Shown: positions 10,566 through 25,230 of the stretch, piece after piece | How the letters are laid out: the number at the start of each line of letters is the position of its first letter | How positions within the stretch are numbered: position 1 is the first letter of the stretch | Notes under the pieces: model-generated | Databases searched by the model: none | What the model saw: the letters and a program-made list of their open reading frames with translations, nothing else | What the model was told of the DNA's origin: nothing | Position numbers and translations under genes: made by a program | Assembly: GCA_036703275.1 (NCBI GenBank) | Contig: DATNPK010000096.1 | Span: 62,001 to 126,000 of the forward strand | Reading direction: 5' to 3' | Source of the DNA: Coleofasciculaceae cyanobacterium | GTDB taxonomy: Bacteria; Cyanobacteriota; Cyanobacteriia; Cyanobacteriales; Xenococcaceae | Length of the DNA stretch: 64,000 nucleotides

Positions 10566-10728
10566 TTGTTTAGAGCAAGGGGAATATCTAGAATGCTTCA
10601 CGAAGTCACAGATTACTCCGCCGTAAAACGACGGAGCCTGCTGTGACCGTTAGTGAATCTAAGCTCTGTCTGTCTTAGTGCGCGCTCTTAAACGGGTTTA
10701 TGCAGTCATGAAGCCGCGCCGTTTTTTT
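10566..10728 (+). other. Structured region upstream of murC, possible RNA or leader
   Basis: Nested complementary arms surround a palindromic element: AGAGC (10572-10576) with GCTCT (10663-10667), TTCAC (10597-10601) with GTGAA (10653-10657), and GTCACAG (10605-10611) with CTGTGAC (10641-10647). After these, AAACGG can pair with CCGTTT (10719-10724) ahead of a run of seven T. The whole could be a short structured transcript ending at a terminator, or a murC leader. The core is a dispersed repeat, so part of the structure may be incidental. No known RNA family was recognised. Confidence 0.3.
10602..10651. repeat. Simple copy of a GTCACAG-ended palindromic element
   Basis: A 50-bp unit GAAGTCACAG...CTGTGACCGTT whose interior carries CTCCGCCG and CGACGGAG arms around TAAAA. 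The same ends and the same inner arms are found, in inverse orientation and expanded by extra inserts, at 24645-24835. Confidence 0.8.
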
Positions 10729-10811
10729 AGACAAAGTGCTGTTCACATCAAAACAAGGTAGTATTCTGTGACCCCTGGTCAAGATGTTTGTGCTATGCAG
10801 GAGACAAAAAA

Positions 10812-12290
10812 GTGGTAAAAGTAGATTTAAATGGTAGACCATTTCACTTTATCGGTATCGGCGGAATTGGGATGTCGGCTTTAGCCCAGATTATTGCTCA
10901 ACGACAACTACCAGTATCTGGTTCGGATTTGCATTCTAGCCATATTACTGAACGCTTAGAAGCATTGGGAGTCAGGATTTTTCGCGGACATGAAGCAAAT
11001 AATTTAGAATGCTCGATTCTATTCCCTAGTAGAGAGCCTAAAGCGTTGTCAGTAAAAGCAGGAGGACAATCGGACACTTTGGAAGAAGTTAAAACTTTGG
11101 GCAGTCAAGTTGATTTCCTGCCACAGGTTATTTGTTCTACCGCGATCGCGCCTACTAATCTGGAATACCAAACAGCAGTTAAACTTGGTTGTCCTATTTT
11201 CCATCGTTCAGATCTTTTAGCTGCCTTAATCGAACAGTATCAGGGAATAGCAGTATCAGGAACCCACGGTAAAACCACTACCAGCAGCCTAATTGGCTAT
11301 ATATTGCTCAAAAGCGATCTCGATCCCACAATCATTGTTGGTGGAGAAGTGGATGACTGGAATGGTAATGCCAGGAGTGGACAAGGAGAATATCTGGTAG
11401 CCGAAGCAGACGAATCTGATGGTTCTTTGGTTAAACATCATCCTAGCATCGGCGTAATCACTAACATTGAACTAGATCATCCAGATCGCTATCACGATAT
11501 TCAAGAAGTAATTAATATTTTCCAGACCTTTGCAGGGCAGTGTAATACTTTAATTGGCTGTATTGACGATCCGATTATCCGCGATGAGTTAGCATTAACT
11601 ATTAGTTACAGTCTCGATCCAGCTACAGGAGCAGACTATACTGCTAAAAATATTACTTATCATTCCCAAGGCAGTAACTCACAAATCTGGGAAAGAGGCG
11701 TGTGTTTAGGAAAATTACAGCTACCATTATTAGGAGAACATAACCTAAGTAATGCCATGGCTGCGATCGCTGTTGGACGACAGATAGGTTTAGAATTTGC
11801 AACTATTGCTCAGGCTTTAGCCACCTTTGGCGGGACAAAAAGACGATTTGAGCATCGAGGAGAAGCCAATGGAATTACCTTTATCGATGACTATGCTCAT
11901 CATCCCAGCGAGATTAATGTGACTTTGGCTGCTGCCAGATTAAGTGTAGATGGTAATGATTCTCTAAAAAGAGTGGTAGCAATTTTTCAACCCCATCGCT
12001 ATAGTCGCACCAAAACTTTTTTGCAGGAATTTGCTAATGCTTTAAACAATGCAGACGTAGTAGTGATTACCGACATTTATAGTGCAGGAGAAACCAATAC
12101 ATTTAATCTTAGTGGCGCAGATTTAGTTCAGGCGATCGCGCTTAAGCATCATCACGTTTACTATCATGCTGACGTAAATTCTCTTGCCGATTTTATCAAG
12201 CAAGAAATATTGCAGCCAGGAGATCTAGCTCTGTTTCTGGGTGCAGGTAATCTCAATCAAGCCATCCCTAAAACTATCTCATTATATTAA
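10812..12290 (+). CDS. murC: UDP-N-acetylmuramate--L-alanine ligase
   Basis: Cytoplasmic Mur ligase that adds L-Ala to UDP-MurNAc in peptidoglycan synthesis. The N-terminal nucleotide-binding part starts FHFIGIGGIGMSALAQ; the ATP-binding loop is SGTHGKTTTSSL; the central domain has EADESDGS and HHP; the C-terminal domain carries FIDDYAHHPSEI and FQPHRYSRT. I chose the GTG at 10812 because AGGAGA lies 7 bases upstream; an in-frame TTG at 10788 would add 8 residues. The product is about 492 residues. A loop of roughly 30 residues before LPQVICSTAI seems longer than usual. murB follows on the same strand, so the two may be co-transcribed. Confidence 0.95.
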   Translation: MVKVDLNGRPFHFIGIGGIGMSALAQIIAQRQLPVSGSDLHSSHITERLEALGVRIFRGHEANNLECSILFPSREPKALSVKAGGQSDTLEEVKTLGSQVDFLPQVICSTAIAPTNLEYQTAVKLGCPIFHRSDLLAALIEQYQGIAVSGTHGKTTTSSLIGYILLKSDLDPTIIVGGEVDDWNGNARSGQGEYLVAEADESDGSLVKHHPSIGVITNIELDHPDRYHDIQEVINIFQTFAGQCNTLIGCIDDPIIRDELALTISYSLDPATGADYTAKNITYHSQGSNSQIWERGVCLGKLQLPLLGEHNLSNAMAAIAVGRQIGLEFATIAQALATFGGTKRRFEHRGEANGITFIDDYAHHPSEINVTLAAARLSVDGNDSLKRVVAIFQPHRYSRTKTFLQEFANALNNADVVVITDIYSAGETNTFNLSGADLVQAIALKHHHVYYHADVNSLADFIKQEILQPGDLALFLGAGNLNQAIPKTISLY

Positions 12291-12452
12291 TTGGGATTAA
12301 TTATTTAATCAGCTATTAGTAATTTTTTGAGTCTCAATCGGGAAATATTTAAATCAAAGTCAAAAGCGTTAAAAAACTCGCCAAAATGCGTTCGAGAAGA
12401 TATCATCAACCAACCTGAATCAATAATTGTTAACGGCTCAATTATTAATTAA

Positions 12453-13346
12453 ATGAATAGCGATAATAGCGATAATTTAATCCAGACTGGTGTATCTTTA
12501 GCGAGCCAAACCTCTTATAAAGTTGGTGGTGCTGCTCAATGGTATGCTGCACCAAGAAACTGGGATGAACTCGAAGCAAGTTTTGCCTGGTATCAAAAAC
12601 AAGATGTTCCTCTAACCTTGCTGGGTGCTGGTTCAAATTTATTAATTAGCGATCGCGGTTTGCCTGGATTGGTGCTTTCGACGCGATATTTTCGTAGTTA
12701 TGAATTCAATCCTGAGACAGGTATTTTAGTGGCTGATGCGGGGGAGGCGATCGCTAAACTGGCTTGGAAAGCTGCTAAACGAGGCTTGAAGGGACTGGAA
12801 TGGGCAGTAGGTATACCTGGTACGGTTGGCGGTGGCGTGGTGATGAATGCGGGCGCGCATAGCTCCTGCATGGCAGATATTTTGGTCAGCGTTACTGTTT
12901 TATCGACCGATGGTACAGTTTCTCAATTAAAGCCTGAAGATTTAGCCTATAGCTATCGTACATCCAATTTACAGGGAGGCGATCGCATGGTAGTCAGAGC
13001 TACAATGCAGCTTGAGCCTGGCTATACCAAAGCTGAAATTATGGAACTTGCCAATCAAAATTGGACGCAGCGCAAGACGACTCAACCTTATCATCTTCCC
13101 AGTTGTGGTAGTGTTTTCCGCAATCCGCAACCCCAGGCAGCAGCCACGTTAATCGAACAGTTGGGTTTAAAAGGACACAGGATAGGCGATGCTGAAATAG
13201 CTCATCGTCACGCTAACTTTATTCTTAACTGCGGTACGGCTACCGCCAAAGATATATTTGAATTAATTCGCTATGCTCAAGAAAAAGTAGAATATCATTG
13301 GTCAGTATCTCTAGAGCCAGAAGTTAAGCTGCTCGGAGAATTCTAA
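12453..13346 (+). CDS. murB: UDP-N-acetylenolpyruvoylglucosamine reductase
   Basis: FAD-dependent enzyme that reduces the enolpyruvyl group to give UDP-MurNAc, the substrate of MurC. The 297-residue protein shows the FAD-binding pieces TSYKVGGAAQW and LGAGSNLLISDRGL, the phosphate-binding GIPGTVGGGVVMNAGAH, the YRTS segment, the catalytic Ser in PSCGSVFRNP and the final Glu in LEPEVKLLG. Its place 160 bases after murC on the same strand fits a mur cluster, although the gap leaves room for its own promoter. Confidence 0.95.
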   Translation: MNSDNSDNLIQTGVSLASQTSYKVGGAAQWYAAPRNWDELEASFAWYQKQDVPLTLLGAGSNLLISDRGLPGLVLSTRYFRSYEFNPETGILVADAGEAIAKLAWKAAKRGLKGLEWAVGIPGTVGGGVVMNAGAHSSCMADILVSVTVLSTDGTVSQLKPEDLAYSYRTSNLQGGDRMVVRATMQLEPGYTKAEIMELANQNWTQRKTTQPYHLPSCGSVFRNPQPQAAATLIEQLGLKGHRIGDAEIAHRHANFILNCGTATAKDIFELIRYAQEKVEYHWSVSLEPEVKLLGEF

Positions 13347-13421
13347 ATAACCGCTCTCTAGGTTATGCTAATTATTCTCATGGATTTCGCAATCACTAAT
13401 CACAAAACTAACTAAACAGAT

Positions 13422-13760
13422 ATGGCAGGAAGAGGATTTGGTCCACTAGGTAAAATGAAAGAGCTTGCTGATGCTTTTAAAAAAGCTCAGGAAGTACAGG
13501 CAGGAGCGCAACAACTCCAAAATGAATTGGAGCAGATGGAAATTGAAGGAACTAGCGAAGACGGATTAGTAAAAGTAGTCATGAGTGGCAACCAAGAACC
13601 CCGTCGTGTAGAAATTTCACCCGATGCAATGTCTCAAGGAGCAGAAGCTCTTTCTGCATCTGTCTCAGCAGCAATGCAGTCTGCTTATGAGCAGTCTACA
13701 GACTTGATGCGTGGCCGCATGGAAGAACTTACCAGTGGTTTGAATCTTCCTGGAATGTAG
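13422..13760 (+). CDS. YbaB/EbfC family nucleoid-associated protein
   Basis: A 112-residue member of the YbaB/EbfC DNA-binding family. It starts with a Gly-rich segment [20 protein letters not shown], continues with a coiled-coil-like Gln/Glu helix, then the family core [19 protein letters not shown] and a C-terminal helix with [11 protein letters not shown]. Family members bind DNA as dimers. It follows murB by 75 bases and is ended by a terminator. Confidence 0.9.
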
Positions 13761-13809
13761 GTTTTAGTAATCGCTCCGCTCAAGCAGAATAATATTAATA
13801 GTTAGCAAT

Positions 13810-13839
13810 GGGGGTTTTTATTAATACCCCTATTTTTTT
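13810..13839 (+). terminator. Rho-independent terminator after ybaB
   Basis: A GGGG/CCCC stem with a T-rich loop is followed by TATTTTTTT, about 50 bases after the ybaB stop. It probably closes the murC-murB-ybaB group. Confidence 0.75.
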
Positions 13840-14092
13840 AGGGCAATTTCATTAGCTTTAGAGGCGATTTGCCCCTAGATTCTATTGCGGGCGTTGTATT
13901 AAAGCGGTTGAATCGCAGTTTGTTCTGTAACCTGTTCGGCTCTAATAGTTCAAGTGCAAAGATTTATACTGAATAAATAGTAATCAATAATGATTGGGTG
14001 AAGAAAATCGCGTCATGATACTAAATCCGATTGATAAAGTACTCTTGACTTAAAGTAGCTATAACTCTTCTGATGTTAACCCCTTGTGCGAC

Positions 14093-14310
14093 TTCTGACT
14101 TTATGCCCGTGCATGATTTGCGAAGCGGCTTGCCCTAAAGGACTAACTTCGTGTCGCACTTATCGCATTGAGTGTACCCGATATCGGCTGACTTGTTGAT
14201 GCAGTCGCTGCGCGGGCGAATAGCCCGCCAGTCGTCGAAGACGACGATCTGAGGCTTCGCCTCTGCGGGGAAACCCCCAAGACCGCGCTGCATCGCTTCT
14301 GACTTACCTA
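14093..14310. repeat. Mosaic of tiny palindromes, copy 1
   Basis: A non-coding stretch containing a chain of short hairpins: GCGGGC/GCCCGC (14212-14228), GTCGTC-gaa-GACGAC (14231-14245), GAGGC-ttc-GCCTC (14251-14263) and GGGG-aaa-CCCC (14267-14277). Bases 14226-14287 recur exactly, inverted, at 24663-24724. The motif TATGCCCGTGCATGATT (14102-14118) recurs inverted at 56906-56922. A CCCTAAAGGAC motif near 14132 is also shared with the other copies. No protein is encoded. Confidence 0.9.
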
Positions 14311-14343
14311 ACCTTAAAGTGTTCTATCCAAACAAGATTTAGT

Positions 14344-14970
14344 ATGACTCAAGCTTTACTCAAATTAGTAGAATTTGAAGAATTTTTAGCTTGGAAACCA
14401 GAAAGTAGAAGTTATGAACTTCATGAAAGGTTAGTAGTAGAGATGCAGCAGACAGGAAAGCATGAAGAAATTGCTCGTCTTCTGGCTACTGAATTTGTTT
14501 TAGAGTACAAAAGATTGAACTTGCCCTACTTTATACCTAAAACTCCTTTGATCAAACCTACAGGTAAGCAATCTGGCTATTCTTCTGACATTCTAGTTTT
14601 AAATCGTTCAGTTTTAAGCCAAGAAGAATTGTGGTCAAAATATTCTCTGCAACTAGCAGAATCTATTCCTTTGATTGTTGAAGTAGTCCTAAAGGATACC
14701 GCTTCGCATATTAGTACCAACTAGCGCGATGATTATTTAACTAAACTAAGAGATTACGAAGAAATTGGTATCCAAGAATATTGGATTATCGATTATCTAG
14801 CTTTGGGCGGTAGACGTTATATTGGTAATCCTAAACAGCCTACTATTTCTATTTATCAATTAGTTGATCGAGAATATCAGGTTAGTCAATTTAGAAATAG
14901 CGATCGCATTTCCTCTATATTTTCCGAACTAAACCTGACTCTACAACAAATTTTCCCAGCATCAGATTAA
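14344..14970 (+). pseudogene. Uma2-family (DUF820) nuclease gene, interrupted
   Basis: Reading frame 1 from 14344 encodes a Uma2-family protein of the restriction-endonuclease-like fold: LKLVEFEEFLAWKPESRSYE at the start, IPKTPLIKPTGKQSGYSSDI in the middle and PLIVEVV. A 24-base insert (14689-14712) adds LKDTASHI, and a TAG at 14722 stands where relatives have Trp in STNWRDD. The same frame then stays open to TAA at 14970, reading DDYLTKLRDYEEIGIQEYWI and YLALGGRRYIGNP. A single G-to-A change plus the short insert would account for the damage. Confidence 0.85.
14689..14712 (+). repeat. 24-bp dispersed micro-repeat inside the Uma2 gene
   Basis: The insert CTAAAGGATACCGCTTCGCA plus TATT keeps the reading frame and resembles the sequence at 56831-56854 (CCTAAAGGATAAGCTTCGCA) and the CCTAAAGG pieces near 14132 and 24779. 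Very small dispersed repeats of 21-27 bases have been described in cyanobacteria; this fits that size class. Confidence 0.65.
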
Positions 14971-14987
14971 TTAATTTTATTTTTGGC

Positions 14988-15503
14988 TTAATCTCGACAA
15001 CCTAAACTATATCTAGTTTCTACTCCCGTAGTAGGGTTTATGCCTTCAGCTCTTTTGCACATTTGAAAAATTTGATAACGATCTAAAATAGCACCCGTAA
15101 AGTCAGCATTCGTGATCGTCGCTCCTGCAAAATTAGTGCTGGTGGCAACAGCATTCTGAAAAATCGCGTTAGTTAAATCGGAGTCTTCAAAAGATACTCG
15201 ATCCATCAATGACCTAGTAAAGTTAGCGTCTTTAAGGTTAGTTTGAACAAAAATTCCCTTAGTCAAAATCGAATTACTAACGTCAGATCCTTCAAAATTT
15301 GCCCCTCTAGCATCCGCAGCAGCAAATACACCGCCGACTAAATTCTTATGAGAAAAATCTTGTCTGCGTATTTCGCTGTAGGTATAGTTAACTGCGCTGT
15401 CTTGGGCAATGGCGGGTGTAGCATCTAATAAAATCCAAGCTATAGCGATCGCTATAATTAATAATAAGCTGAGCAAACGCTGTTTAAGTTGAGACAAGAA
15501 CAT
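14988..15503 (-). CDS. Secreted or lumenal pentapeptide-repeat protein
   Basis: A 171-residue protein with a signal peptide (hydrophobic residues about 10-30 ending ATPAIAQ) followed by A(D/N)LxX-type pentapeptide repeats such as ADARGANFEGSDVSNSIL and NLKDANFTRSLMDRV, which fold into a right-handed beta-helix. The C-terminus has two Cys (in CKRAEGINP and SLGCRD) that may form a disulfide. Related thylakoid-lumen pentapeptide proteins exist in cyanobacteria and plants; the function is unknown. It ends 28 bases before the next minus-strand gene's coordinates begin, so the two may share a transcript with the LCP gene first. Confidence 0.85.
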   Translation of the reverse strand: MFLSQLKQRLLSLLLIIAIAIAWILLDATPAIAQDSAVNYTYSEIRRQDFSHKNLVGGVFAAADARGANFEGSDVSNSILTKGIFVQTNLKDANFTRSLMDRVSFEDSDLTNAIFQNAVATSTNFAGATITNADFTGAILDRYQIFQMCKRAEGINPTTGVETRYSLGCRD

Positions 15504-15530
15504 AAAAAAAATGTATTGTAAGTTTTACTG

Positions 15531-16883
15531 TCAGTTGAATGAACGATAGTTGGTTGGTAAATAAAGCGCATCTTTACCAATTTGAAGAGTTAATTCTCTT
15601 GGTCGCAAATCAGATTTTGTCTCTAAATTACCAAATCCTAAAATCTCTTGCAGATAGTGAGCTGGTTTTACCTGGCTACGATGAGCCACAATTCTAGTCT
15701 TATTTAATTTTAGCGGGATGTGTTCGACTAGATAAACATCTCGAAAATTTCGATGTCTTAAGTAGGCTATAACCTGCATTGCTAATTGAGGATTATTAGT
15801 CGTATTTTGTACCGCGACTGGATTATCTTGAAGATGACTTTTGGCGGCAAAAATATTTGAATGAGAAAATTTAGCCTTTTGCTGGGTTGAGGGGAATTTA
15901 TCGAGTTGATGACTATCGGCTATCGTTTTGCCAGGGGTATATCCTGGTAACAAATTGACGCTAATGCTATCAGCCTCTAGCTCTTCAACAAAATTTGCCA
16001 AAGAGATTATTTCTGGCACAGATATATTAGTATCCAAATTAGACTCGGCTTCAACTATTGCCGTTTTAAAGCTTGCCATATAATTCGGAATATTGAGATG
16101 TTGACGAATAGCCTCGAAGGTATTACTTTGTCTGACAATCTGTTCCAAATTATCTGAACAGTCTCTAATTCTGGGATCGCAATCTTGAAAAGTTATTTTG
16201 CCACTAGCAATCAATTGCCGAAAAGTTTCTGGAGTAGCGCGTATATAGCGATCGATAGTTAAGTCATTCATCAACTGACTAACTACTTTAGACAATAAAT
16301 TAGTACCACCTAGTTCATAAGCAAGCGCGATCGTTCCTGCGCCAAATCCAGGAATTTCGGTGCTACTGTCGAGAGGAAGATTAATTACCTGTGCTAACTC
16401 AAGCTGAGGCTCAAACCTGAGTAACAAAATAGTTTTGCTGTTACCAATAAAAGTATCAGGAAACTCAATCATTTCATTAGTATCAAATGTATCTTCAATT
16501 AATAAAACATTAATCGGGCGGTTGAGAATTGGTCGATCTATTGCTGATTCGGGGGCAGAATTTGCCTCGATTTTTTGAGCAATAGTCCGTTCAATTGCGT
16601 CAATTTTGGTCAGAGCAGCTCCACACAAAGCCGAAGAGACTGCCGTCAAACTGATTATTCCTCCCCAAAAAAGACCACGACTAAAGTGTGACCAAGATTC
16701 ATGCTGTGACCAAAACCACCAAGGCTGATGCAATAGCTTTAATTCGTTAGTAGCAGGTGTCTGCTCGACAGTTTTTACTTTTAACAAATCAGTTGGCTTA
16801 AGCTGATTTTCAGCTCTGGTCATGGCGTTATTTTCAAATTGCCATGAAGGTTTGTCTCGATTGCGCGATCGCTCATGATTCAT
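15531..16883 (-). CDS. LytR-CpsA-Psr (LCP)-like protein with LytR_C domain
   Basis: A 450-residue membrane-anchored protein: cytoplasmic tail (1-68), one membrane helix (about 70-91), an LCP-like domain (about 122-290) and a C-terminal LytR_C-like domain (about 365-440). LCP enzymes transfer glycopolymers to the cell wall. The fold markers NVLLIEDT, GAGTIALAYELGGTNLL and DRYIRATPETF are present. However, the usual IPRDT is NLPLDSS (Leu171 for the conserved Arg) and the usual SDT is SKT (Lys150 for Asp). These substitutions make normal transferase activity doubtful. The pentapeptide gene follows directly on the same strand. Confidence 0.75.
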   Translation of the reverse strand: MNHERSRNRDKPSWQFENNAMTRAENQLKPTDLLKVKTVEQTPATNELKLLHQPWWFWSQHESWSHFSRGLFWGGIISLTAVSSALCGAALTKIDAIERTIAQKIEANSAPESAIDRPILNRPINVLLIEDTFDTNEMIEFPDTFIGNSKTILLLRFEPQLELAQVINLPLDSSTEIPGFGAGTIALAYELGGTNLLSKVVSQLMNDLTIDRYIRATPETFRQLIASGKITFQDCDPRIRDCSDNLEQIVRQSNTFEAIRQHLNIPNYMASFKTAIVEAESNLDTNISVPEIISLANFVEELEADSISVNLLPGYTPGKTIADSHQLDKFPSTQQKAKFSHSNIFAAKSHLQDNPVAVQNTTNNPQLAMQVIAYLRHRNFRDVYLVEHIPLKLNKTRIVAHRSQVKPAHYLQEILGFGNLETKSDLRPRELTLQIGKDALYLPTNYRSFN

Positions 16884-17258
16884 ACAAATTATCTTTATTG
16901 TTTATGCTATGAGTTTTAATTCAAGATTAGTTAATACGTATCTTCGGTTTGATGATGCTCAAATTTAAATTTTTATAAATAGAAAAAAAGCCAGACAAAA
17001 AGGGTATTCTAACTTCAAAGAAATATACTTAAGTAAACCTAAGCTCTATGCTTCGGCTTTATGTTATGTCTTTAAACTCTTGACTATTGGTAAAAACGAC
17101 GGGTTATTTTAGAGTGGACAAATTCGTCAGTTATATAGTATCACCGTAAACTGTGACCATTGCTCAAGCAAAATTGATTGACCAACACAGTTTCTGAGAA
17201 ATTTTAATAAATTAGTCGGCCGATATCATCTTTAATGTCCTGCACAATGGAAAAGTAA
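16884..17258. other. Divergent intergenic region, no gene seen
   Basis: An AT-rich stretch of 375 bases between two divergently transcribed genes. It should hold promoters for both. I found no convincing ORF, repeat or RNA structure. Confidence 0.5.
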
Positions 17259-18329
17259 ATGGAAACTAAATTAATCCCAATTATTCTCGCTGGCGGTAAA
17301 GGTGAGCGTTTTTGGCCAGTAAGCCGTCTGAAAAGACCTAAGCAATTTTTGTGCCTGGATGGTAGTGGAAAAAGTTTATTACAATCTACGGCCAATCGCC
17401 TACTAAATTTAGCAGGAGGCTGGAATAATCTTTGGGTGATTACTTCAGAAATTATTGCTGATGGAGTTAAAGAACAGCTACCAAATCTACCTGAGTCTAA
17501 TATTTTAGTTGAACCCCAAGGAAAAGATACTGGACCTGCGGTAGCATGGGCAACTTTAGAGGTAGCAAAAAAATATGGCAATGATGCCATTGTGGGATTT
17601 TTCCCCGCCGATCATTGGATCGGCGATACAGTAGCTTATGAAAAAACTCTCCAAGCAGCAGTGCAACAAGCAGTTTCCGAACCATCGATCGTCACTTTAG
17701 GTATTACTCCAGATCAACCTGCCACAGGCTATGGCTATATTGAGCAGGGTGCTAAAAAAGGCGACTTTAATCATTTGCCTGTGTATCGTGTGACTCGCTT
17801 TACCGAAAAACCAGATGAAACTACCGCTCAATCTTTTATTGATACAGGTAAATTTAGCTGGAATAGTGGGATGTTTATCTTTAGAGCTGGAGTGGTACTG
17901 GACGAATTAGCCAAATACGCGCCTAAGCTGCTACAAGCTTTAGCCTTAAAAGGTCGTGATGCCTATGCCGAATTGGAGAAAGAAAGCATCGATTACGCGC
18001 TGATGGAAAAAACTCAGCTAGCCTGTGTTTTACCTGCTAACTTTGGCTGGGACGATCTAGGTGATTGGAATGGGGTCGAACGATTGCTCAAAGGCGATCG
18101 AGATAATGTGGAATTAGGTACTCACATTAGCCAAAATACTCAAGATACAATTATTTACGCTGGTGACCACAATGAAGTGATTGTCACTATTGGTTTGAAA
18201 GACGTTGTGATCGTTCGTGATGGCAATGTAACTTTGGTGGTCGATAAAAACCATACTCAAGACATTAAACAAGTCGTTAAGTCTCTGCAAAATGAACCAA
18301 AGTATAAGCATCTTAAGCATCTATTATAG
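17259..18329 (+). CDS. manC: Mannose-1-phosphate guanylyltransferase
   Basis: Makes GDP-mannose from mannose 1-phosphate and GTP for surface polysaccharides. The 356-residue protein opens with the nucleotidyltransferase signature LAGGKGERFWPVSR followed by RPKQFLCL, has the metal-site motif FFPADHWI (near residue 115), FTEKPDE for the sugar-binding side and WNSGMFIF. It lacks the C-terminal phosphomannose isomerase domain found in bifunctional ManC/AlgA proteins. It may be followed in the same transcript by the ABC permease 70 bases downstream. Confidence 0.9.
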   Translation: METKLIPIILAGGKGERFWPVSRLKRPKQFLCLDGSGKSLLQSTANRLLNLAGGWNNLWVITSEIIADGVKEQLPNLPESNILVEPQGKDTGPAVAWATLEVAKKYGNDAIVGFFPADHWIGDTVAYEKTLQAAVQQAVSEPSIVTLGITPDQPATGYGYIEQGAKKGDFNHLPVYRVTRFTEKPDETTAQSFIDTGKFSWNSGMFIFRAGVVLDELAKYAPKLLQALALKGRDAYAELEKESIDYALMEKTQLACVLPANFGWDDLGDWNGVERLLKGDRDNVELGTHISQNTQDTIIYAGDHNEVIVTIGLKDVVIVRDGNVTLVVDKNHTQDIKQVVKSLQNEPKYKHLKHLL

Positions 18330-18400
18330 AGTTAGAAACTTATAAGATAAATAACAAGTTAAGACTAGGAACGGCTTAAAGGAGAAAGGGAAAAGCTTCT

Positions 18401-19186
18401 ATGTTAAATCTAAGAAAGGCAAGAACTATTCTTATGTCTCATTATGCTCATATGCTGGAGTATCGAGCCGAGATTTTTCTTTGGGCATTATCTAACTCCC
18501 TGCCAATTATCTTGATGGGGGTATGGATACAAGCATCTGAAGATGGTAATTTTGATTTTACTCCTCAAGAGTTTGCACGCTACTTTTTCAGCGTATTTTT
18601 GGTGCGCCAACTTACGACTATTTGGGTCATTTGGGAATTTGAGCGAGAAATACTTGAAGGCAAACTATCGCTGCGTCTCTTACAACCCCTTGACCCTGTT
18701 TGGCATCATGTCGCTAGGCACGTGGCAGAAAAAATGACTCGCATACCTTTGATAGCTATTTTTTGCGGTTTATTTGTTATTCTCTATCCTGATGCTGCTT
18801 GGATTCCGCAGCTAAAAAATATCTTCTTAGGGTTAGTTGCGATCGCCTTGGCTTTTATTCTGCGTTTCGCGATTCAATATACCTTTGCGATGCTGGCTTT
18901 TTGGACAGAGAGAGCCAGCGCGATTCAGCAATTTTGGTTTCTATTTTATCTTTTTCTTTCAGGCTCGATCGCACCATTAGAGGTCTTTCCTGATACCGTT
19001 AGGCGAATCGTCGAATGGACACCTTTTCCCTACATGATGCACTTTCCTGCCGTTTTGTTAATGGGACTACCTGTCGACTTTGGCAGCAGTGTTCTAATCA
19101 TGATTGGCTGGACAACAGCATTTATTGTGCTTAACCGCTGGCTTTGGCGCCAAGGTTTAAAGCAATATTCGGGCATGGGGGCATAA
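18401..19186 (+). CDS. ABC-2 type transporter permease (DUF990-like)
   Basis: A 261-residue membrane protein with about six membrane helices. The N-terminal MLNLRKARTILMSHYAHMLE followed by YRAEIFLWAL is typical of the ABC-2 family permeases that occur in pairs with a second permease and an ATPase. Neither partner is in the window, so the subunits must be encoded elsewhere. The substrate is unknown. An AGGAGAAAGGG ribosome site lies before the ATG (18380-18390 area). Confidence 0.85.
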   Translation: MLNLRKARTILMSHYAHMLEYRAEIFLWALSNSLPIILMGVWIQASEDGNFDFTPQEFARYFFSVFLVRQLTTIWVIWEFEREILEGKLSLRLLQPLDPVWHHVARHVAEKMTRIPLIAIFCGLFVILYPDAAWIPQLKNIFLGLVAIALAFILRFAIQYTFAMLAFWTERASAIQQFWFLFYLFLSGSIAPLEVFPDTVRRIVEWTPFPYMMHFPAVLLMGLPVDFGSSVLIMIGWTTAFIVLNRWLWRQGLKQYSGMGA

Positions 19187-19241
19187 TTTACGCTGTTTTT
19201 GATTAAAAAGACATATATTTCCGGCTTTATCGTCAAAAATC

Positions 19242-19319
19242 AAGAGTATTTTACTGCCTAATACTCTTATTAACGAGGAGCAAAGAACTAAGCCTAATCT
19301 ACAGCTTTTCTTGCTCCTC
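19242..19319. terminator. Two hairpins between convergent genes
   Basis: AAGAGTATT (19242-19250) pairs with AATACTCTT (19260-19268), and GAGGAGCAA (19275-19283) pairs with TTGCTCCTC (19311-19319). Lying between two convergent genes they probably act as a bidirectional stop, although neither is followed by a long T run. Confidence 0.5.
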
Positions 19320-19343
19320 ATGAATTAATCTCTAATCACTTAC

Positions 19344-19667
19344 TTAACTTGCTGCTGCTGATTTTTCTGTCGAAGATTTGGAGCTAGAACCAACAACGGT
19401 TCGGCGACTAAAACGTTCTTCTTCCATAGGTTCAAACTCGATTCTATTGAGCAGAGTTGTGACAAAGGCAAATAACAAAAAAGGCAAGGATAGTACTAAA
19501 ACAATACCTACGGTAGCTAAAGCATAAATCTGCCTAGTGCTGCTCCACAATGCCAAAGTAGTAGCTAAGCTAACAAAGATTACAATCAACCAAATTATGA
19601 TCTGACCATAAATATCACCAAATTTCAAAGTACAAATCATCTTATATTTGTGCAGTTCGTTATCCAT
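19344..19667 (-). CDS. Small two-helix membrane protein, conserved in cyanobacteria
   Basis: A 107-residue protein with two membrane helices (about 21-41 and 49-72) and a Ser/Arg-rich tail ending SSSKSSTEKSAAAS. The short cytoplasmic motif NRIEFEPMEEE follows the second helix. I do not know the function. It is monocistronic and converges with the ABC permease. Confidence 0.65.
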   Translation of the reverse strand: MDNELHKYKMICTLKFGDIYGQIIIWLIVIFVSLATTLALWSSTRQIYALATVGIVLVLSLPFLLFAFVTTLLNRIEFEPMEEERFSRRTVVGSSSKSSTEKSAAAS

Positions 19668-19943
19668 TGAAAATCTCCTAAAAGTTTGTCTGTTAATCTC
19701 TAGATTATTTAGATTATCGCGGAGGTTTTCAGAATCAGAAGAATATTCAAATATTTTTCCAACGGTTGCAATATCTGTTTACAATTAAAGGATTTTGACA
19801 AGTATAAATACTTAATCTGTTTTTTAGCTGTTTTTAACCATGGTATTAAACAAATCTGTGGAAATTTTTGATTTTTGGCACTAGAGTTCAAGCTTGTAAT
19901 AGGCTAAATGAAGAAAACTCGAATCAAAAGAATTTGTGACATC

Positions 19944-20564
19944 ATGGCAGAAAGCTCTCTCGTCGAAGATCGCGACTACACCTTAATCATCGACAAAAGC
20001 GGAAGTATGTCGATTAACGATCGCCCAGGCGGAAAAACTCGCTGGGAATCTGCTCAAGAATCTACCTTAGCTTTAGCTAAAGAATGTGAAAAAATCGACC
20101 CCGATGGGATTACGGTTTATCTATTTTCTGGTCGTTTTCGTCGCTACGATAATATTACTGCCGATAAGGTAAATAAAATTTATACCGAAAATGAGCCGAT
20201 GGGACGCACCGATTTAGCCAGCGTCTTAGCCGATGCCGTTAATAACTACTTTGACCGCAAAGCGGCAGGAGACGCTAAAGCCAATGGAGAAACTATTATA
20301 GTTGTTACTGATGGTGAACCTGACGACTACAAAGCTGTAATGCGAGTAATTATTGAAGCTTCCCGTCAGATAGATCGCGATGAAGAATTAGCTATTTCTC
20401 TGATTCAAGTAGGCAAAGATCGCAAAGCAACTCAATTTCTCAAGGCATTAGACGATCAGTTGCAATCTGCTGGAGCAAAATTTGACATTGTTGATACCAT
20501 CACTATTGATGATATGCAAGGTTTAACTCTGGCAGAGGTTTTACTAACCGCTATTACAGATTGA
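19944..20564 (+). CDS. von Willebrand factor A domain protein
   Basis: A single vWA domain of about 206 residues with a complete MIDAS metal site: DKSGSMS (Asp17, Ser19, Ser21), a Thr in GRTDLASVL and Asp in VTDGEPDD. It has no signal peptide or membrane helix and is therefore cytoplasmic. Such stand-alone vWA proteins resemble TerY-type proteins. An upstream in-frame ATG at 19908 would add 12 basic residues; I prefer 19944 because relatives begin close to MAESSLVEDRDYTLIID. The partner is unknown. Confidence 0.85.
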   Translation: MAESSLVEDRDYTLIIDKSGSMSINDRPGGKTRWESAQESTLALAKECEKIDPDGITVYLFSGRFRRYDNITADKVNKIYTENEPMGRTDLASVLADAVNNYFDRKAAGDAKANGETIIVVTDGEPDDYKAVMRVIIEASRQIDRDEELAISLIQVGKDRKATQFLKALDDQLQSAGAKFDIVDTITIDDMQGLTLAEVLLTAITD

Positions 20565-20680
20565 GTTTATTATAGTATTTTAAACTGCAAACATCTTTCA
20601 AAAATTATGTAGAGTAACTAGGATTGTTAATCGGATAAAAATCCTAACACTAATGATTGACAAACTATTAGGATGTAAGA

Positions 20681-21826
20681 GTGATGCAATCTTACCCCTT
20701 ACATTCATTAATTGAAGGTAGCTGGTTCAAGTTAATTTGTGGAGCTAGCTATCAACATCTTCCTGCGGTTCGCAGTTTAGCTTTAGCCTATAGCTTAGCT
20801 GGCGCTGACTGTATAGACGTGGCTGCTGACCCAGCTGTGATTGCTGCGGCAAGAGAGGGTATCAACGCAGCTCAAAAATTAAAATTACTCAAGTCAACCG
20901 AACCAAGTACGTCACGGAGCGTACAAGCCCCGCCCTTCGAGGGCGGGGACAGCTCCTTACCTTGGTTAATGGTAAGTATTAACGATGGAGAAGATCCTCA
21001 TTTTCGTAAAGCCAAGTTCGATGTAACCCAATGTCCAACTGATTGTCCACAACCTTGTGTCAGGGTATGTCCTGCGGAGGCAATAAATCTTAGTTTTGGG
21101 GGAGTTTTAGATAGCCTTTGTTATGGCTGTGGTCGCTGCGTACCGATTTGTCCTCAGGAATTAATCGTTACTCGTTCATATCTATCGAGCCTGGAGCAAA
21201 TTGTACCCTGGATCGAATCAATGGCGGTGGATGCAATTGAAATTCATACTCAAGTGGGTCATTATCATGATTTCAAGCGCGTGTGGAAAAATATTTTTCC
21301 CGTAGTCGGTCAACTTAAGCTGCTGGCAATTAGCTGCACCGATGGAGAAAATGTTATAGATTATTTGCGATCGCTCTATGAGTTAATTAGTCCTCTGCCT
21401 TGTCCTCTAATTTGGCAAACTGATGGACGTTCGATGAGTGGAGATATTGGCAAGGGAACTACCCATGCTGCGATCGCTTTTGCTCAAAAAGTTTTGCAGG
21501 CACAACTACCAGGATATATCCAGTTAGCAGGAGGAACTAACGACTATACGGTAGACAAATTAAAACAGGCGAAAATGCTAGGGCGACAAGACTTAACTTC
21601 AACGTTTAAATTAGTTTCTGGACTGGCTTATGGAAGCTATGCACGCGCAATTTTATCATCGACAATAGCCAAGTTAGAAACAACTGAACTGCCAGAAAAA
21701 CCAGCTAATTTTAAAAGTCAACCCATGAATCAGCTTAATTTAAAGTTAGAACAAAATCGAGAGCTACTACAAGAAGCTGTAGGCACTGCCAAAAAGCTAG
21801 TCAGTCAAATTAAAAACAGCCATTAG
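20681..21826 (+). CDS. ldpA: LdpA, iron-sulfur protein of the circadian input pathway
   Basis: LdpA senses redox state and adjusts the circadian period in cyanobacteria. The 381-residue product has an N-terminal domain, a ferredoxin-like double cluster (TQCPTDCPQPCVRVCPAEAI with CYGCGRCVPICPQE, about residues 117-165) and a C-terminal LdpA domain. A palindromic repeat (20916-20956) lies in frame inside the gene and encodes roughly residues 77-93 (SRSVQAPPFEGGDSS), between QKLKLLKS and LPWLMVSINDGEDP. From memory, family members have only a short linker there. The rest of the frame is undisturbed, so the protein is probably functional. Confidence 0.9.
   Translation: MMQSYPLHSLIEGSWFKLICGASYQHLPAVRSLALAYSLAGADCIDVAADPAVIAAAREGINAAQKLKLLKSTEPSTSRSVQAPPFEGGDSSLPWLMVSINDGEDPHFRKAKFDVTQCPTDCPQPCVRVCPAEAINLSFGGVLDSLCYGCGRCVPICPQELIVTRSYLSSLEQIVPWIESMAVDAIEIHTQVGHYHDFKRVWKNIFPVVGQLKLLAISCTDGENVIDYLRSLYELISPLPCPLIWQTDGRSMSGDIGKGTTHAAIAFAQKVLQAQLPGYIQLAGGTNDYTVDKLKQAKMLGRQDLTSTFKLVSGLAYGSYARAILSSTIAKLETTELPEKPANFKSQPMNQLNLKLEQNRELLQEAVGTAKKLVSQIKNSH
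20916..20956. repeat. Palindromic repeat read in frame inside ldpA
   Basis: A 9-bp stem CCCCGCCCT-tcg-AGGGCGGGG (20928-20948) is bracketed by GGAGC (20916-20920) and GCTCC (20952-20956). It is very GC-rich against the surrounding gene and looks like the subterminal hairpin of IS200/IS605-type elements. It contains no stop in the ldpA frame. Confidence 0.8.
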
Positions 21827-21888
21827 CTACCAGTTTTTGTTCAATTGTTCGCCCAATTTTTATTTTATTAACCAAATATATTTTTGAA

Positions 21889-23643
21889 ATGCAGTCAGAT
21901 ATAGCTTCTCATCGGATGCAAGTGACCGATAATTTAGATAAGTTACTTACTATTTTTCCTGAATCAATTCGCTCCAAGTTAGACGAACATCTTCAGCCAG
22001 ACAGTGATAACTTAATTGAACTAGTTTTAGATTTGGGTAGACTACCAGAAGCTCGTTTTAGCGATCGCGTTACTTATATTCGCCAAGAACCCGTAACCAA
22101 AGAAGAAATACAGCACTGTATTGAACGAGTAGGAATGTTTAGCAGCGACAACCGCGCTGGGATAGAACGGACGCTACATCGAATTAGTGCTATTCGGAAT
22201 CGTACTGGAGATATTATCGGCCTGACCTGTCGTATTGGTCGAGCTATTTTCGGTACAATCGTAATGATTCGTGACCTAGTAGAAACAGGGCAATCAATTC
22301 TGCTTCTGGGTCGTCCCGGGGTGGGTAAAACTACGGCTTTGAGAGAAATTGCCCGAGTTTTAGCCGATGATTTAGGAAAACGAGTTGTGATTATTGATAC
22401 TTCCAATGAAATTGCCGGAGATGGGGACGTTCCTCATCCTGCCATTGGTCGCGCCCGTCGAATGCAGGTAGCCCGTCCTGAACTACAGCATCAGGTAATG
22501 ATTGAGGCGGTAGAAAACCATACGCCTGAAGTAATTGTCATCGATGAAATCGGTACAGAGCTCGAAGCATTAGCAGCCAGAACTATTGCTGAGCGTGGAG
22601 TGCAGTTAGTAGGTACGGCTCATGGTAATACTGTGGAAAACTTAATCAAAAACCCGACCTTGTCCGATTTAGTCGGCGGGATTCAAAGCGTTACTTTAGG
22701 AGACGACGAAGCTCGACGCAGAAGGACACAGAAGACCGTCTTAGAAAGAAAAGCACCTCCAACCTTTGCGATCGCTGTAGAGATGCTAGAACGGCAACGC
22801 TGGGTCGTACACGACGATGTATCAGCTACGATTGATACTCTATTGCGAGGTATTGAGCCACCCGCCCAAGTGCGAACCGTAGACGATAGCGGTGAAGTTT
22901 CAATTATTCATGAAGAATCTTCCTCGCCTTTTAAGCCGTTACCTGCGAGAAATACCAACGGGGTTATGCCTTTATATTCTCAAGGTTTAAAAGCCTCGGG
23001 AAAAATGGCCCCTGTGTCACTAAGCGGAGGTAAATCAAAACGAGATAGTTCTGACTTTGGCACGATGTTAGAACGTTCTTGGCAGACGAAAGAACCCAAC
23101 AGTCAAAAACTACGTACTCCTGGTCCTAATGGAGAAGATTGGCCGGTTTATATCTATGCCTATGGTATTGGTCGCTCTCAAATCGATCAGGTGATTGAGG
23201 TATTAGATCTGCCGATCGTGTTGACCAAAGATCTAGATGAGGCAGATGCGGTGATAGCATTGCGATCGCAAATCAAGCATCATTCTAAATTACGTAACAT
23301 TGCCAAAGATCGCCATGTTCCCATTTACACGGTCAAATCTAATACAATTCCCCAGGTTACTCGCATCTTTCGCCAAATTCTTAATCTAGACGATCCTAAT
23401 ATTCCTGAACCAACGGATCTACGTTTGTTTACCAAAGCTGGTAACGATGACGAGATCGAGGCTTTGGAAGAAGCAAGATTAGCCGTAGAGCAAATCGTAA
23501 TTCCTCAAGGCCAACCTGTAGAGTTACTACCGCGATCGGCAAAAGTAAGAAAAATGCAGCATGAATTGATCGAACATTACCGTTTACAGTCTGATAGCTT
23601 TGGAGACGAACCAAACCGTCGTCTCCGAATTTATCCAGCCTAA
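21889..23643 (+). CDS. Ycf45-like R3H-domain AAA ATPase
   Basis: A 584-residue protein related to chloroplast Ycf45 and distantly to SpoIIIAA. The ATPase domain (about 60-310) has Walker A GRPGVGKTT (141-149), Walker B VIVIDEIGTE, and the AERGVQLVGTAHGN segment. A linker follows, then a domain beginning YIYAYGIGRSQIDQVI, and finally an R3H single-strand nucleic-acid-binding domain (about 515-570). The exact role is not established; binding to RNA or ssDNA is a family inference. ldpA lies 62 bases upstream on the same strand, so co-transcription is possible. Confidence 0.88.
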   Translation: MQSDIASHRMQVTDNLDKLLTIFPESIRSKLDEHLQPDSDNLIELVLDLGRLPEARFSDRVTYIRQEPVTKEEIQHCIERVGMFSSDNRAGIERTLHRISAIRNRTGDIIGLTCRIGRAIFGTIVMIRDLVETGQSILLLGRPGVGKTTALREIARVLADDLGKRVVIIDTSNEIAGDGDVPHPAIGRARRMQVARPELQHQVMIEAVENHTPEVIVIDEIGTELEALAARTIAERGVQLVGTAHGNTVENLIKNPTLSDLVGGIQSVTLGDDEARRRRTQKTVLERKAPPTFAIAVEMLERQRWVVHDDVSATIDTLLRGIEPPAQVRTVDDSGEVSIIHEESSSPFKPLPARNTNGVMPLYSQGLKASGKMAPVSLSGGKSKRDSSDFGTMLERSWQTKEPNSQKLRTPGPNGEDWPVYIYAYGIGRSQIDQVIEVLDLPIVLTKDLDEADAVIALRSQIKHHSKLRNIAKDRHVPIYTVKSNTIPQVTRIFRQILNLDDPNIPEPTDLRLFTKAGNDDEIEALEEARLAVEQIVIPQGQPVELLPRSAKVRKMQHELIEHYRLQSDSFGDEPNRRLRIYPA

Positions 23644-23701
23644 AAGCTTTAAAGATTATAAAGACGGTTTGATTGTTAATCTTAAATTAATGGTGCATCG
23701 A

Positions 23702-23755
23702 GTACTTAATGATAAATTGGCGCCCTGCCATCTTGGCTGATTTATCATTAAGTAC
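23702..23755. repeat. Perfect 16-bp inverted repeat, MITE-like
   Basis: GTACTTAATGATAAAT (23702-23717) is exactly complementary to ATTTATCATTAAGTAC (23740-23755), with a 22-base GC-rich spacer. There is no T tract after it, so it does not look like an ordinary terminator. It may be a miniature element end or a protein-binding site. The 295-base space around it holds no credible gene. Confidence 0.8.
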
Positions 23756-23938
23756 AGCATTTAGATCAAAGGCTATGGCACAAAAAAAAATGATGCAGCC
23801 TGCCCTTGTCCGATAATCTACAAATTCGGCGATCGTACTAAAGTGTACCCGATCGGGGTCTAGAAGCATTGAAATACTCAGCTTATATTAACAGTGTACA
23901 TCTGATATGGCGAAGTCTATCACTGACACATCGCCAAA

Positions 23939-24394
23939 ATGCTTAAGTTTAGAAAAAAAATGAGACAAGATGCAATCTTTGGACCATTCTTTGCCACAAT
24001 CTTTCTGACATTAGTGGTTTGGGTATATATGTACATCCGTCGGATAAGTTTTATTAGCAGTAAAAAGATTCACTCACAAGACTTGAGCGCAAGTAAACTA
24101 GCACAAATTTCTCCCCCAAACGTATCCAATCCATCCGATAATCTGAAAAACCTGTTCGAGATTCCGATACTTTTCTATGCACTCGTACTGTATCTCTTTG
24201 TTACAAAGCAGGTGGATACAGTATATGTGAATGCTGCATGGATTTTCGTGGTATTTCGCGTATTGCACAGTGCTGTCCATTGTACATTCAATCTCGTCAT
24301 GCTTCGATTCTACCTATACCTATTCGCAACCCTGGCTATGTGGTTCATCGCCATTCGCGCAGCTTTTTTTCATTTCGGCTGGTGGATGCTTTAA
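23939..24394 (+). CDS. MAPEG family membrane protein
   Basis: A 151-residue protein with four predicted membrane helices. It carries the MAPEG pattern: NLKNLFEIPILFYAL, then AWIFVVFRVLHSAVHCTFN. MAPEG proteins of eukaryotes act on glutathione and eicosanoids; bacterial members are mostly uncharacterised. A second Met at residue 8 could be the start. The stop codon overlaps the end of a decayed gene on the other strand. Confidence 0.8.
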   Translation: MLKFRKKMRQDAIFGPFFATIFLTLVVWVYMYIRRISFISSKKIHSQDLSASKLAQISPPNVSNPSDNLKNLFEIPILFYALVLYLFVTKQVDTVYVNAAWIFVVFRVLHSAVHCTFNLVMLRFYLYLFATLAMWFIAIRAAFFHFGWWML

Positions 24395-24632
24395 GTAAGA
24401 TTTTTCTTACTCCTTGAATAAATACATTAAAACTAGGCGATTTATTGTTTTCTAAATTTAAATGTTGAGATATAGCTCTAGAACCACTAATTTTTTGATA
24501 GTCTGTGGCAATCTTTTTAAATTCTTGTTTTGGATTTAAAATTTGGTAAGGAATTATTTTAGGTAATAAATTTTCAAGTGTCTCTTTCATAGAAGGTTCT
24601 TCTAATAAAAAAACTAGCTCATAATTATTCAT
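24345..24632 (-). pseudogene. DUF4276 gene with internal deletion
   Basis: The N-terminal piece YELVFLLEEPSMKETLENLL followed by PKIIP is joined directly to a C-terminal piece QEFKKIATDYQKISGSRAIS followed by NNKSPSFNVFIQGVRK. In DUF4276 proteins (about 200 residues) these parts are separated by roughly 100 residues, so the catalytic centre is gone. The ORF then runs into the end of the convergent MAPEG gene. An AAA ATPase remnant lies just upstream, so this was once a two-gene unit. Confidence 0.75.
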
Positions 24633-24644
24633 TATTGACCAACG

Positions 24645-24835
24645 GTCACAGCAGCGCGACAACGCGGTCTTGGGGGTTTCCCCGCAGAGGCGAAGCCTCA
24701 GATCGTCGTCTTCGACGACTGGCGACGCTACTGCGTCGCGCAGCGATTGTCGTAAGAAGGCTCCGTCGTTTTATATGCCCTAAAGGACGACGCGAAGCTA
24801 GTCCTTTAGGACGGCGGAGTAATCTGTGACTTCCC
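24645..24835. repeat. Mosaic palindromic element, expanded copy 2
   Basis: The unit begins ACGGTCACAGCAG and ends CGGCGGAGTAATCTGTGACTT, the same ends as the 50-bp element at 10602-10651. Two inserts expand it: the 62-bp hairpin chain (24663-24724, identical to 14226-14287 inverted) and a CCTAAAGGAC...GTCCTTTAGG palindrome (24779-24810). It separates the AAA and DUF4276 remnants. Short open frames within it are artefacts of GC-rich repeats. Confidence 0.88.
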
Positions 24836-25036
24836 CAAATAATTCCTGTTTCCAAAGATAACCAGGCTTGTCTCGTTTAACCAAATTTTTTAATAATTTA
24901 TTATCACAAGCACAATAAATTTGAGTCATTCCTTCTTTTTTTTCTAACCAATAAATATTTTCTAGCTCGACTGCATTAAGAAAATCAGGAGAATGAGTAG
25001 TTACAAATACTTGCCCTTCTTGCTCAGTAAGCTCAA
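24836..25036 (-). pseudogene. C-terminal remnant of an AAA/ABC-type ATPase
   Basis: On the minus strand the sequence reads ELTEQEGQVFVTTHSPDFLN, then AVELENIYWLEKKEGMTQIY, then KLLKNLVKRDKPGYLWKQEL. This is the Walker-B-distal His switch region (TTHSPDFL) and C-terminus of an SMC/RecF-like AAA ATPase of the kind often paired with DUF4276. Repeats flank it on both sides and the ATP-binding front is missing. Confidence 0.8.
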
Positions 25037-25068
25037 CGGGGTAGAACCCCGCAACGCTTCTTCGCGCT
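25034..25068. repeat. Short GC-rich palindrome
   Basis: GGGGT-aga-ACCCC (25038-25050) is followed by GCTTCTTCGCGCTTC. It lies at the broken edge of the ATPase remnant, in the same style as the other mosaic repeats. Confidence 0.5.
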
Positions 25069-25230
25069 TCTTTTGTATATGATGCGAATTTTTCACTTCA
25101 AAAGGTAAAATCTCAATTAATTCACACACAATCTAATCAGATATTATAAGCTTTTAGTTTTCGATCGTGTTCAAAGATGGATAAAATTTGATAGCCTAAG
25201 CTAATAAGCTTTGGGAACGAATCAAGCAGC

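Follow-up and report, generated by a model that had tools for sequence, protein, structure and literature searches.

We analysed a 64,000-nucleotide stretch of the genome of a Coleofasciculaceae cyanobacterium (G000, 5.62 Mb; the stretch, hereafter the window, is G000:C96:62001-126000) that carries two palindromic units, at 10.6 kb and 24.65 kb. These are a simple and an expanded copy of one dispersed element, 48 nt long in its simple form, which is probably a very small non-autonomous mobile element nested by still smaller modules. The features of the two copies are given below in window coordinates.

10605 to 10652, plus strand: simple element copy, 48 nt, consisting of a 19-nt left arm, a 5-nt loop, a 19-nt right arm and a 5-nt tail; without counterpart in the relative G012 (L213).
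10653 to 10657, plus strand: target GTGAA of the simple copy; the same sequence is uninterrupted in L213.
24640 to 24830, minus strand: expanded element copy, 191 nt (48 + 38 + 105); its flanking blocks are 7 bases apart in the relative G020 (L201).
24812 to 24830, minus strand: left arm GTCACAGATTACTCCGCCG of the expanded copy.
24774 to 24811, minus strand: insert of 38 nt in slot A (the loop), a CCTAAAGGAC palindrome module.
24653 to 24757, minus strand: insert of 105 nt in slot B (the right-arm bulge); both ends resemble a 51-nt unit at the same slot in L141.
24635 to 24639, plus strand: target of the long copy, GTCAA when read on the minus strand.
14202 to 14287, plus strand: copy of the slot B interior, 92% identical, between other complementary arms (GATGCAG / CTGCATC).

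The short unit reads GTCACAG...GACCGTTA. A reading made from the sequence alone had proposed that the two units share their ends and inner arms and that the interior of the 24.65-kb copy was expanded twice. Both proposals held: the loop has gained 38 nt (the palindrome module), and the right arm 105 nt, which include what that reading called a hairpin chain. The shared end that it gave, CTGTGACCGTT, was also correct, but the bases that follow the end (GTCAA, GTGAA) are target and not element. Window positions 10603-10650, folded as DNA, gave -12.3 kcal/mol on the plus strand and -14.5 on the minus strand (z of -4.8 and -5.8), and none of 200 shuffles folded as well on either strand. The long copy, folded as RNA, had a z of -4.0. 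A genome search with GTCACAGATTACTCCGCC, allowing up to two mismatches, returned 40 matches, compared with none for the reversed pattern. Because of this difference and the failure of all shuffles to fold as well, we regard the element as more than a chance pattern. An Rfam search of the window gave no match at gathering scores.

Copies were collected from 134 loci (L009-L046 and L082-L179, minus L118 and L127) with 140 left ends. Copy counts are defined by a stricter right-end rule, under which 132 left ends have a right end and 8 do not; nine further left-end matches with an inverted tail in front were skipped, since each only reads its unit from the opposite strand. Under this rule L124, L141 and L178 are not simple, and the ends of L120 and L173 are doubtful. 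L118 and L127, matches outside the cyanobacteria, showed no hairpin and were dropped. With GTCASAGATTACTCCGCCG (at most one mismatch), the element was found in all 12 genomes of the same genus, in 10 of 14 of the same family and in none of 33 from other families in the order. Match positions or spacings in common (L152 with G004, L131 with G012) indicate that G004 is Pleurocapsales cyanobacterium LEGE 10410 and G012 is Myxosarcina sp. GA_180221, each in the same genus as G000, whose host is therefore probably a pleurocapsalean. A scan of named genomes yielded 98 stretches, and the species make-up was read from the best 80: 78 are cyanobacterial, mostly from Pleurocapsales, with Lyngbya aestuarii and Cyanothece BG0011 among them. 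The viral contigs and phages searched contained no match. Plasmids gave one partial match of 40 nt (87.5%), at NC_019765.1:165770-165809 in Stanieria cyanosphaera PCC 7437; the plasmid concerned has been typed as conjugative. Among the matches listed from open-licence full texts, no title or abstract describes the element.

The element has the consensus GTCA[C/G]AG-ATTA-CTCCGCCG-loop-CGACGGAG-CCTG-CT[G/C]TGAC, followed by the tail CGTTG, present at one side only, and lies immediately before a GTCAA-like target. Sixty-two simple copies measure exactly 52 nt with their target and represent 39 distinct sequences. Across them, pairing is conserved at the outer seven positions and at most inner ones; position 5 holds a G-C pair in 42, a C-G pair in 14 and no pair in 6. 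A single inner C-A mismatch is almost constant (60 of 62), as is the foot tail (CGTTG in 60 of 62). The bulge reads ATTA/CCTG in 48 copies, has the ACGG form in 6 and has its four positions paired in 8. Inserts sit at two positions that are both unpaired in the hairpin: slot A is the point of the loop that precedes TAAAACG, and slot B follows GGAGCCT in the right arm. The parse that gave these slots left 13 of 134 copies unparsed and read L120, L124, L141 and L178 wrongly. Families with other arms, GTCAGG...CCTGAC and GTCACCCG...CGGGTGAC, have the same tail and target. Since the arms vary while remaining paired, the fold scores are strong and families with other arms share tail and target, arm pairing seems to matter more than the arm letters, with tail and target apparently kept as sequence. 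A sister family, F2 (GTCAGGATCCCCGCCG...CCTGAC; L235, L246, L247 and L309), has a simple form of 44 nt with the same tail, target and insert slots; it is missed by a strictly symmetric-pairing hairpin scan, which was replaced by another scan.

Comparison with relatives reveals sites that lack the element. Five of the six copies of set SU3, each compared with two relatives, have an uninterrupted site: L096 (relatives L180 and L182), L102, in a Uma2 gene (L184), L099 (L187), L103 (L190) and L097 (L193 and L185); the sixth, L087, gave no clear alignment to such a site. At the short window copy, G012 (L213) reads through as AGTGAATC. The junction alignment at the long window copy is poor. From translations and family names, we take that site to fall within the final codons of an AAA-ATPase remnant, just ahead of a DUF4276-like gene. 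The same remnant shows an apparent second in-frame insertion at about 25023-25074, EARRSVAGFYPVELTE with a GGGGTAGAACCCC hairpin, which is lacking from L201 and is possibly a micro-element. Of 34 other own-genome copies, 11 aligned across the junction to such a site, with element lengths of 52-267 nt and identities of 71-87%; one query underlying this comparison contained 16 of the 34 copies. A further set gave 9 spanning alignments out of 22, of which 7 were with an uninterrupted relative and 2 were of copies with themselves.

These comparisons define the target. Relative to uninterrupted sites, the gain is 48 nt, larger in expanded copies, and no part of the target is duplicated. The four target bases were identical in 6 of the 11 junction-spanning own-genome copies. 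An A precedes 116 of 132 copies, and in 97 of the 132 the tail is followed by GTCA. The relative's target is GTGA for L096 and the short window copy, GTAA for L018 and GTTA for L138, yet the left end of the element is GTCA in each; because these targets are found in both species, the left GTCA is not a duplicate. The target duplication that the sequence-only reading had proposed to look for was thus absent when copies were compared with the relatives' sites, and a scan over 770 combinations of offset and length gave no clear excess.

The simple element amounts to 16 codons and is stop-free in three of the six frames. When the element was removed, 32 of 132 sites lay within a frame open for 40 codons or more to either side, and in 27 of the 32 the element in its present form leaves that frame open. 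Fifteen of the 32 use the frame QRLLRR.., 11 the reverse frame DQRSEQ.., 4 the frame SEITPP.. and 2 one closed frame; in the commonest frame, the target GTCAA forms a codon pair ending in Gln. Stop-free frames were used at 30 of 32 sites, compared with 60% in the null (p = 2e-5). This null was built from GT[C/G]AA sites within open reading frames (ORFs) that reach 200 codons or more, taken from contigs C96 and C111 of one genome, whereas the tested copies come from many genomes; here as below, copies and inserts are kin, so the p values are too small. Since approximately 70% of GT[C/G]AA sites on the two contigs fall in such ORFs, copies within genes are depleted.

A Pfam scan of 20 of the 27 host frames matched 17, and in 8 of these the insert lies within the matched domain: the aconitase family (L031) and DUF6208 (L036), both in the own genome, DUF4131 (L097, whose host gene is presumably comEC), Uma2 (L102), ATP-grasp in a PurK-like protein (L137), AMP-binding (L145), cNMP-binding (L116) and DUF1517 (L168). 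An insert-free version of the same gene exists in a relative for L097, L102, L036 and L116. The remaining scanned copies lie in linkers or near the N terminus, where the upstream open frame may go untranslated.

Expanded copies of the main type also tend to keep their length in frame. In this type, 35 of 45 distinct expanded sequences are multiples of three (p = 1e-9, from related sequences), including 22 of 24 of up to 110 nt and 10 of the 14 between there and 200 nt. This length rule suggests that donors may pass through genes. The sequence-only reading had recognized the nesting and missed the frame compatibility and the location inside genes, which are the more important point.

Transposition by HUH/Y1 enzymes leaves no target duplication, uses a short fixed target at one side and involves hairpin recognition. 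Such an enzyme fits the element, whose hairpin could be recognized, whose target is fixed next to one end and whose insertion duplicates nothing, and our best guess is that a single-strand (HUH-type) transposase moves it. An enzyme supplied in trans, acting like those of the IS200/IS605 and repetitive extragenic palindromic (REP)/RAYT types, would recognize the single-stranded hairpin and tail and join the hairpin beside the target. Joining would occur on the bottom strand, 3' of TTGAC, where CAAC of the tail could pair with the target. Insertions into genes would mostly be purged by selection, leaving as survivors those that landed in an open frame. Smaller modules would later invade the loop and bulge of existing copies and produce a nested mosaic, of which the 24.65-kb copy would be a module-invaded product and the 10.6-kb copy the unexpanded form.

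Several observations count against this account. No mobilizing enzyme was found, nor did any longer element with the same ends lie behind 19 listed right ends (L227 and L294 being the same site) over at most about 1.5 kb upstream; a single weak left-end match lay at a distance of 531 bases in L308, where the right end is that of the expanded copy L042. A Y1 transposase as mobilizer was not borne out by gene content: G012 has 16 element matches and only two weak RAYT-like matches, and G015 has one element match and 43 Y1 matches. The two G012 proteins, for which RAYT-like is our own label, have homologs in 7 and 36 of 60 genomes and are not codistributed with the element; for the second, the carriers G006, G007 and G021 have no homologs at the threshold used. 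The largest excess in the duplication scan, out of its 770 combinations, was a 2-base match seen 17 times against 8 expected. On the coding side, three open frames out of six is about the chance expectation for 16 codons, 5 of the 32 copies close the frame (L018, L025, L041, L106 and L175), and 44 nt, the length of F2, is not a multiple of three. Nor is the 191 nt of the long window copy; main-type copies above 200 nt are multiples of three in only 3 of 7 cases, and the ACGG subtype shows no excess (7 of 18).

One of the two RAYT-like proteins (L289:1219-1758, minus strand) contains an in-frame near-repeat, NASILLANSS / NASIMLADS.

The coding exceptions given above bear on a serious alternative, namely that the in-frame copies are merely tolerated passengers, with the length rule arising from module sizes (18, 21, 24, 48 and 51 nt) and shared descent and not from coding selection. 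We consider that this could well be so. In its favor, inserts are shared among copies, and the ACGG subtype and the longest copies escape the rule. It accounts less well for the intergenic main-type copies, which mostly obey the rule too (27 of 37), and for the short expansions (net length of up to 110 nt), nearly all of which obey, not all of these distinct sequences being independent. Movement through an RNA copy, in which a small hairpin RNA would be reverse transcribed or reverse spliced, has reportedly been proposed for small dispersed repeats of Nostoc. The strong hairpin, the entry of modules at unpaired loop and bulge positions and the lack of target duplication all suit this route, but a fixed target beside one end is equally well explained by a DNA enzyme, and we think it unlikely here. 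More doubtful still is a miniature inverted-repeat transposable element (MITE), meaning a DDE insertion sequence that has lost its interior, keeps terminal inverted repeats and duplicates a fixed 4-bp target, GTCA. Inverted repeats do exist, and the GTCA that commonly follows the tail places GTCA at both ends; however, at GTGA, GTAA and GTTA targets the left copy is still GTCA, paired with the right arm, and is no duplicate, the tail is one-sided, and no parent element was found over the upstream distance given above.

The order of the nesting events can be approached from the inserts. That small repeats are nested within small repeats, as the sequence-only reading had claimed, was borne out: different inserts break the same join at the same slot, and the slot B unit of the window stands alone at G000:C57:292-399 (96% identical), with partial copies at C76 and at window 14202-14287. 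L141 (Xenococcaceae MO_167.B52) carries the related 51-nt insert in slot B, and the inserts of L124 and L120 start alike. Because the slot B unit also occurs separately and joins are interrupted, the boundaries point to an order in which the outer element came first, the slot B unit next and the inserts of the slot B unit itself last.

The same reading had taken the simple form as ancestral, and here the genomes differ. Of the 96 copies parsed from other genomes, 61 have the simple form (48 nt net), which is the commonest; in the own genome, 5 of 36 copies are simple, 30 are expanded and 1 is shorter, a few of those scored as expanded having poor right ends (e.g., L012 and L044). The long form is thus the usual one in the own genome and not elsewhere, which counts against the simple form as ancestral and comes near the refuting condition set by the sequence-only reading. 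Nor did any of the sites compared hold orthologous copies of which one species had the simple and another the expanded form. The simple majority elsewhere, the interrupted join and the separate slot B unit support the simple form as the best candidate for the ancestral unit. That the long form came first, with simple copies arising by deletion between repeats, is very improbable, since the own-genome excess of expanded copies is all that favors it, against the simple majority elsewhere, the various inserts at one join and the slot B unit found alone.

Two further observations concern the modules. At 14202-14287, the slot B interior lies within other complementary arms, which suggests that arms and interiors are exchanged independently. 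In the own contigs C96 and C111 (695 kb), about 30 of the 40 repeat clusters listed are mosaics of modules such as CCTAAAGGAT, CCCTTCGGTC, CATGCACGGGC and GACGCGAAGC. An insert catalogue built from exact 20-mers was dominated by tandem repeats and was set aside.

The element may serve as a natural means of extending proteins by short segments. More tentatively, it is possible that a cyanobacterial lineage of hairpin transposons has evolved to live inside coding genes, with its modules kept at multiples of three, and that nested transposition has become a generator of new protein loops. To our knowledge, mobile DNA that inserts in frame into genes is best known from Rickettsia, in which experiments are hard. 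Here the element that does so is 48 bp, very small for mobile DNA, and its hosts are free-living cyanobacteria; its target is defined, it carries many nested inserts, and relatives offer uninterrupted sites for comparison. Two questions thereby come within reach of experiment, namely the identity of the enzyme that mobilizes hairpins of this kind and whether tiny palindromes, by transposing, steadily supply proteins with new segments.

The element resembles several known systems without matching any of them. Like members of IS200/IS605, it lies beside a short fixed one-sided target and causes no duplication; unlike them, it has one hairpin instead of two subterminal ones, and no Y1 gene with these ends was found. 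It differs from MITEs in having no target site duplication. The small dispersed repeats (SDRs) of Nostoc punctiforme, reportedly described by Elhai et al. in 2008, are said to be 21 to 27 nt long, to be nested in each other and in minitransposons and to show paired changes. Several slot A and slot B inserts of 18 to 24 nt fit this description, whereas the outer unit is 48 nt long and frame compatible. SDR5 is located in HIP1 sites, according to one report (PMC4390886).

REP sequences and REPINs are described as hairpins dispersed in many copies and thought to be moved in trans (PMC3116915). Our element is likewise a many-copy dispersed hairpin, but it has no GTAG or CGTC foot tag, is a single hairpin and has many copies in genes, and the two RAYT-like proteins compared do not track it. 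A further parallel is with the Rickettsia palindromic elements (RPEs), which two sources present as small palindromic repeats located in frame within the ORFs of unrelated genes (PMC3733652, PMC10969869) and, in one of them, as about 150 bp long (PMC10969869). Our element is also a dispersed palindrome found in frame in unrelated coding genes, a likeness of description. At 48 bp it is shorter, and it differs further in its fixed GTCAA-like target, its uninterrupted sites in relatives, its families of paired arms, its nested modules and its cyanobacterial host.

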